A stretch of DNA of 64,000 nt from an uncultured Flavobacteriales bacterium (GTDB lineage Bacteria; Bacteroidota; Bacteroidia; Flavobacteriales_D; Sanyastnellaceae). Position numbers and translations under genes: made by a program. The notes under the pieces were generated by a model. It did no database searches, had not been told where the DNA came from, and saw only the letters and a program-made list of their open reading frames with translations. Below, in pieces: positions 42,009 through 42,515 of the stretch (positions are counted from its first letter, which is position 1; each line of letters begins with the position of its first letter). The stretch lies in assembly GCA_938085105.1 (NCBI GenBank), contig CALKGK010000033.1, positions 117,076-181,075 on the forward strand. The letters are read 5' to 3'.

Positions 42009-42050
42009 TAAAAGGATAGGCTCATCGTGAACCTATTCTCTTTATGTTGT

Positions 42051-42142
42051 GGGAGATACTGGATTACTTCCTCCGGTCGTGAATAAGTTCGATTCAGTGA
42101 CCCTCCCGATGGTAGTCGGGATGCTCTGAATCACCTGAGCTA
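42051..42142 (-). pseudogene. Decayed tRNA-Val-like copy
   Basis: Read on the minus strand, the segment keeps TAGCTCAG, TTCAGAGCAT, GAGGGTCACTG and the acceptor end ATCCAGTATCTCCC of the intact tRNA-Val. The anticodon arm is replaced by a TCCCG/CGGGA hairpin, about 25 bases are inserted in the T loop, and the 5' acceptor strand is replaced by the end of the GIY-YIG frame. It cannot fold as a working tRNA. Confidence 0.75.
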
Positions 42143-42385
42143 TTTGTTGATGAGATTGTCAATTTTCTTCCTTGACTTCCATCTTTTAATTACTTTCTCT
42201 CTAGCGATTACCTCGTTGAATGTGTCAAAAGTCTCGTGATAAACGATTATCCAGTCTTTGTATTTTCCTGTAAACCCTTTATGGTTGGATAGGTGTTTCC
42301 TCAGTCTTTCTTAAAGCATATCACTAGTGGCTCCGATGTAGTATTTATTGGCGCTAGTGGGAAAAAGAATGTAAGTGTATTGCAT
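42140..42385 (-). pseudogene. GIY-YIG nuclease pseudogene next to tRNA-Val
   Basis: Minus-strand frame from ATG at 42385 reads MQYTYILFPTSANKYYIGAT, the GIY-YIG core (YIL...YYIGAT), then after SDML an in-frame TAA, then continues [26 protein letters not shown], and [20 protein letters not shown] to a TAG at 42140. Both halves match the small (about 80-residue) GIY-YIG family, related to UvrC N-terminal and homing nuclease domains; the stop replaces a residue inside the conserved DxxERLRKH helix. The single nonsense codon makes a working protein unlikely. The last codons overlap the tRNA-like remnant. Such small GIY-YIG genes recur next to tRNA genes in Flavobacteriia. Confidence 0.85.
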
Positions 42386-42396
42386 CAGATGAAGGC

Positions 42397-42430
42397 AAAA
42401 AAAAGGATAGACTCATCATGAACCTATCCT
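42397..42430 (-). terminator. Terminator of tRNA-Val
   Basis: On the minus strand AGGATAGG...CTATCCT forms a hairpin (arms 42404-42410 and 42424-42430) followed by eight T residues. A degenerate copy lies at 42010-42039. Confidence 0.75.
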
Positions 42431-42440
42431 CTTTGTGTTG

Positions 42441-42515
42441 TGGGAGATACTGGATTCGAACCAGTGACCCTCTGCTTGTAAGGCAGATGCTCTGAACCAA
42501 CTGAGCTAATCTCCC
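42441..42515 (-). tRNA. tRNA-Val (anticodon TAC)
   Basis: Full cloverleaf on the minus strand: acceptor GGGAGAT/ATCTCCC (7 pairs) with discriminator A, D arm AGCTC/GAGC, anticodon arm TCTGC-CTTACAA-GCAGA with TAC anticodon, T arm ACTGG-TTCGAAT-CCAGT. The 3' CCA is not encoded. A terminator follows, and a decayed copy lies further downstream. Confidence 0.95.

Follow-up and report, generated by a model that had tools for sequence, protein, structure and literature searches.

The Seg proteins of phage T4 are free-standing GIY-YIG homing endonucleases with a selfish distribution next to a specific gene, and in the REP/RAYT and IS200/IS605 systems a nuclease gene is associated with short palindromes. 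A duplicated host-gene 3' end accompanies the mORFs of fungal mitochondria, known from atp6 of Allomyces and from atp6, atp9, cox2 and nad3 of Glomus (PMC3630166). There, a free-standing endonuclease ORF sits at a host gene, an inserted foreign 3' end completes that gene, and the native 3' end is displaced beyond the ORF (PMC3630166).

The unit described here lies at a tRNA-Val gene in a 64-kb stretch of DNA (64,000 nucleotides, "the window") from an uncultured Flavobacteriales bacterium. The first-pass annotation reported a GIY-YIG remnant between two copies of a tRNA-Val end plus terminator, and on this ARAGORN, the PF01541 match and alignment all agree; its position was right, although the extent given (42010-42456) was too small. 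Because the tRNA-like copy spans D-arm to 3' acceptor strand (42049-42142), the whole unit is 42010-42515. It is a decaying copy, with the following parts and neighbor:

42440-42515 (-): intact tRNA-Val, anticodon TAC (UAC) (ARAGORN; Rfam RF00005, 75.8 bits)
42395-42439 (-): first terminator, AAAGAGGATAGGTTCATGATGAGTCTATCCTTTTTTTT, immediately 3' of tRNA-Val (sequence and coordinates)
42140-42385 (-): GIY-YIG nuclease ORF MQYTYIL...LINK*, 81 codons (PF01541 match, ORF reading, intact sister copy)
42302-42322 (-): stretch GATATGCTTTAAGAAAGACTG, containing the in-frame TAA (sequence reading)
42049-42142 (-): tRNA-Val-like copy, from the TAGCTCAG D-arm onward (alignment to tRNA-Val)
42104-42121 (-): hairpin TCCCGACTACCATCGGGA, replacing the anticodon arm (sequence reading)
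42065-42087 (-): 23-base insertion in the T-loop of the tRNA-Val-like copy (alignment)
42010-42048 (-): second copy of the terminator, diverged (alignment)
42646-43413 (+): methyltransferase-like gene, divergent from tRNA-Val (first-pass annotation from sequence)

The tRNA-Val locus and its nuclease

The tRNA-Val(tac) gene (42440-42515, -) is the one tRNA called by ARAGORN and the region's sole Rfam match; neither ARAGORN nor Rfam, the latter even at E<=1, identifies the copy as a tRNA. The copy has a D-arm, hairpin, variable loop, T-arm and intact 3' acceptor strand, lacks the 5' acceptor strand, and its T-loop is interrupted. From the 3' side of the T-arm through the terminator the two copies are identical at 51 of 55 positions, ungapped, versus 28 in the best of 2000 shuffles and 32 at the next best place in the window; the earlier count of 52 in 56 was essentially right, and the likeness is not at chance level. 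The hairpin TCCCGACTACCATCGGGA is the sole TCCCG..CGGGA palindrome in the window, and the ORF stops on TAG, the three bases with which the copy's TAGCTCAG opens. A large ORF of 1123 aa (38173-41544, -), with several GPFWGWDPNGGPIAADNGDGTWTVTLDPAP module repeats, follows shortly after the unit.

The nuclease matches PF01541 (GIY-YIG) at 42164-42382 (-), with 51.9 bits and E 2.6e-13. The ORF is a pseudogene, with one in-frame TAA at codon 25, where the sister genome G014, whose ORF at this locus is intact, has a Gln codon; the G014 protein scores 62.6 bits versus a curated cut-off of 22.6. At ~80 residues, these proteins have the catalytic residues of the GIY-YIG superfamily (the GIY/YIG tyrosines, arginine and glutamate), and Y16, G18, R27 and E63 are invariant across 17 aligned nucleases. 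The nearest solved relatives by sequence, PDB 1zg2 and 1ywl (E 5e-4 and 3e-3), are UPF0213/YhbQ-like GIY-YIG proteins, both hypothetical. No relatives of the intact protein were found in the phage, plasmid and viral-contig sets searched. The GIY-YIG ORF is the sole gene of the unit, and among its Pfam hits only GIY-YIG exceeds its cut-off, with no HUH (Y1) family.

Some known kinds of element do not fit the layout of the unit: a group I intron with a GIY-YIG ORF (the tRNA is contiguous, and no intron family is found in the unit region by Rfam at E<=1), a tyrosine-integrase island (no integrase in the unit), and a REP/RAYT system (no HUH transposase linked to the palindromes).

Recurrence, tRNAs used and hairpin-bearing copies

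A Pfam search of 114 family genomes found units after tRNA-Val in G028, G038 and, as two in tandem, G015. An alignment of 17 tRNA-linked nucleases, used as a query against 305 genomes of the order, matched 174 of them in 46 of 66 genera; the units are therefore common, yet seem undescribed. Among 115 ORF copies (the best loci and 60 more) picked by protein similarity regardless of tRNA or hairpin, 57 closely follow a tRNA on the same strand and 69 have one within 400 bases on either side, for a rough chance expectation of ~0.1%; the remaining ORFs are largely second copies in arrays or at contig ends. In control loci, no tRNA lies within 1.5 kb of UvrC/epsilon-type (0/15) or other short GIY-YIG genes (0/11). 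The tRNAs used are Val, Asn, Ala, Leu, Asp, Met, Phe and Arg, with Lys, Ile and others in named genomes; unit size is ~350 bases, and gene order and orientation are constant. Similar units beside tRNAs in Flavobacteriia, mentioned in the first-pass annotation, thus exist in many instances in related genomes, and this recurrence at many tRNA genes points to an apparently undescribed selfish element specialised on them.

The more specific pattern of a tRNA copy with TCCCG..CGGGA in the anticodon arm occurs in 28 of the 305 order genomes (21 of 66 genera; one match to the reversed control) and in at least 119 stretches of named species genomes, mostly Bacteroidota. A GIY-YIG ORF is nearby for at least 45 of the 119 listed stretches, a lower bound because the matches include some normal tRNAs whose stem fits the pattern (e.g., L112, L114, L136). 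Among the matches listed, units with a GIY-YIG ORF also occur on contigs titled Acidobacteria, Armatimonadetes, Dehalococcoidales, Nitrospirae, Verrucomicrobia, Marinimicrobia and Kryptoniota, although mis-binned contigs may be among these.

A tree of the 81 nucleases that directly follow a tRNA groups them by isotype (25 changes versus a shuffled mean of 49.7, with none of 200 shuffles as low), although many of its forks are weak because it rests on 79 columns. The Asn, Val and Met lineages each extend across host families. This supports target specificity carried by the nuclease lineage, partly confounded with vertical descent: some of the clustering could come from descent at a fixed tRNA locus.

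The methyltransferase-like gene was the anchor for reading the same tRNA-Val locus in other genomes. The ORF there is intact in G014 (same genus) and G047 and a pseudogene in the window; G015 has two units, G045 and G048 have fragments, G044 and G046 have copies without the ORF, and G043, G027 and several g17 genomes have an empty site. Genus g40 includes both a filled site (G191) and an empty one (G179); the two genomes are 96% identical upstream of the tRNA and 94% identical beyond the copy, a second case of presence and absence at one site among close relatives. Intact versions, including that at the same locus in the same genus, and empty sites are thus both found; with the recurrence and the tandem versions, they support the first-pass proposal of insertion or duplication at a tRNA gene by a small element, and we infer that the nuclease drives its movement. 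In genomes without a GIY-YIG unit, integrase-like ORFs (MATLK/MATLN..., annotated by eye) were seen soon after the same tRNA-Val or tRNA-Asn (L352, L353, L358, L373); these tRNAs therefore also seem to be integration hotspots.

A palindrome is present in nearly every readable copy. When replaced segments were anchored on tRNA context, not on complementarity, 13 of 22 had a stem of at least 5 pairs versus 0.5% of shuffles. The copies are of two kinds, downstream (3' half and terminator kept) and upstream (5' half kept); G047 has 13 downstream copies of ~111 bases at tRNA-Asn, and at tRNA-Val it has 8 upstream ones of 80 bases. Hairpin position is 28-31/43-45 for Val, 26/35 for Asn lineage A, 33/43 for Asn lineage B, 40/45 for one Met lineage, and in the T-loop for Phe and Leu(UAA). 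It mostly goes with the nuclease lineage; the exception, which counts against the link, is L297 (Asn), with the lineage-A position in lineage B. The hairpin could be read in 62 units; in most of these the stop codon of the ORF lies in the tRNA mimic or within ~20 bases of it, often in the loop of the hairpin, and the nuclease gene and mimic therefore make up one built unit. The second copy in the window is indeed altered, as first described, but "scrambled" in the sense of random decay does not hold, given both the lineage-linked hairpin positions and an ORF that ends inside or beside the copy. Two simpler generalizations, TCCCG..CGGGA as a fixed recognition motif and an anticodon-arm swap in every copy, were given up on the evidence of Asp, Met, Phe and some Ala and Leu units, which differ in sequence or position.

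Tandem arrays of tRNA-like copies were seen at L043/L214 (G047), L064 (G147), L080 (G344) and L066 (G167), some with hairpins in D-arm and anticodon arm; several arrays are immediately upstream of an intact tRNA, which simple insertion does not explain. In G047, G028, G166, G347 and other genomes TCCCG..CGGGA palindromes are also dispersed genome-wide, well in excess of the reversed control (G047, 150 versus 46; G028, 74 versus 22; G166, 71 versus 11; G347, 77 versus 16); a repeated example is TCCCGATAGCTATCGGGA. The window's own genome, G000, has ~20, versus 15 in the control. Other-subtype short GIY-YIG genes in family genomes (L004, L005, L007, L009, L010, L011), with no tRNA near them, are flanked on both sides by dispersed REP-like palindromes such as GGGCTTCGACTCCGCTCAGCCC and CCCGAGCGCAGTCGAGGGC, possibly a second association of GIY-YIG genes with palindromes.

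Possible origins of the unit

The reading we lean towards, with some reserve, is that the unit is a decaying, tRNA-gene-specific selfish element built around a free-standing ~80-residue GIY-YIG endonuclease and homing by repair. The nuclease would cut the cognate tRNA gene, most likely at or near the hairpin position of the tRNA-like copy, and the break would be repaired from an element-bearing allele, with conserved tRNA sequence as homology arms. Repair would insert a 3' tRNA part, terminator, nuclease ORF and hairpin; the insertion would complete the host's 5' tRNA part and push its own 3' part and flank downstream. This leftover would be kept as a tRNA mimic with its fold disarmed by the hairpin, neither a working tRNA nor an intact target, so that the hairpin may serve as protection. 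Tandem arrays could then arise by repeated insertion, solo tRNA-like scars by loss of the ORF, and pseudogenes like the window copy by decay.

One locus comparison shows native flank displacement: the flanking sequence found behind the tRNA in the ORF-free G196 sits, in G186 and G198, after the copy (72% and 81%), and not after the intact tRNA. This favors import of a foreign 3' end. In 30 of 49 units the two terminators of the unit are alike at 80% or more, compared with 0.6% between units and 1.2% for the same isotype; this favors simple target-site duplication in most units. The pattern expected from completion by a new 3' end with displacement is seen for G186 and G198 against G196, and in the 30 of 49 units the two terminators are indistinguishable; terminators so alike are more readily understood as the result of local duplication, or of gene conversion at a later time, than of import. 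Two further points count against homing or fall outside it. Once restored, the tRNA should still be a target, a situation that self-limiting homing elements normally avoid, and the upstream-type tandem copies before an intact tRNA (G047, G147, G344) are outside a simple insertion model.

The rival with most support, which we nonetheless consider rather unlikely, is hairpin-based transposition or amplification, a GIY-YIG counterpart of the REP/RAYT or IS200/IS605 systems. A structure-specific GIY-YIG enzyme would recognise DNA hairpins, both the palindrome and the tRNA's own arms, and the unit between them would be mobilised or tandemly amplified, duplicating the adjacent tRNA 3' end and terminator. 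It would account for the palindrome in nearly every readable copy, the nearly identical duplicated terminators and tandem arrays such as the 13 copies of ~111 bases in G047, and it would accommodate the palindromes dispersed in several genomes (150 versus 46 reversed in G047) and the other short GIY-YIG genes among REP-like palindromes. Hairpin sequence and position vary between nuclease lineages, however, T-loop positions included, the window's own genome has hardly more palindromes than its control, and we know of no hairpin-bounded circle or excision product. It is improbable, too, that the unit is a domesticated module kept by host selection because it protects or regulates the tRNA gene, for example as a decoy against integrases or a gene-conversion buffer: the tRNAs used do overlap integration hotspots, and arrays of ORF-less copies persist, but occurrence is patchy within genera, and the frequent stops, truncations and solo scars look selfish. 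Least credible, to the point of being very hard to sustain, is a scar of a past tyrosine-integrase element at the tRNA 3' end with the nuclease ORF as an unrelated passenger. Repeats of tRNA 3' ends are classic att sites, and integrase-like ORFs (read from sequence) follow the same tRNA-Val in G181, G190 and G353; against this, the units measure only ~350 bases, have no integrase, keep a constant gene order and orientation and include D-arm sequence and an inserted hairpin, and their nuclease lineages track tRNA type.

Meaning, and comparison with described systems

If the units are of the homing type, they are selfish elements that exploit the cell's most conserved genes while keeping them working, and they would explain broken tRNA copies that otherwise resemble junk. 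For annotation, such copies resemble tRNA pseudogenes or integration scars, with a different cause. The units also lend themselves to testing how endonuclease lineages come to have, and then retain, a particular tRNA as target, because Val, Asn, Met, Asp, Lys, Ala, Leu and Phe lineages are available side by side.

No description of a GIY-YIG/tRNA-copy unit was found in the open-access literature searched, in line with the first-pass remark that the mechanism appears little described, and the element is apparently undescribed so far. A more ambitious interpretation, which we put forward only tentatively, is a new class of mobile element, present in several phyla, that would move between, or be amplified at, bacterial tRNA genes: a minimal GIY-YIG nuclease whose ends are DNA hairpins in tRNA mimics and whose own stop codon is written into the mimic.

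Compared with known systems, the best fit is a variety of free-standing endonuclease element. Like tyrosine-integrase tRNA islands, the unit has a partial tRNA 3' repeat downstream of a tRNA; unlike them it has no integrase, an insert of ~0.3 kb and a hairpin in the repeat. With REP/RAYT and IS200/IS605 it shares a nuclease gene with short palindromes, but it has no HUH enzyme and its palindromes are inside tRNA-derived copies. The GIY-YIG catalytic domain and the selfish distribution beside a specific gene recall Seg-type homing endonucleases of phage T4, from which the unit differs in the lack of a visible separate DNA-binding domain in its nuclease, in its tRNA target and in the duplicated target remnant. 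The nearest documented parallel is the fungal mORFs, with a free-standing endonuclease ORF, a completed gene and a displaced 3' end (PMC3630166). Those, however, occupy mitochondrial protein genes and have longer ORFs (LAGLIDADG in the atp6 example), whereas here the genes are bacterial tRNA genes, the enzyme is a GIY-YIG nuclease of ~80 residues, the displaced part is hairpin-disarmed, and the terminators are often nearly identical.
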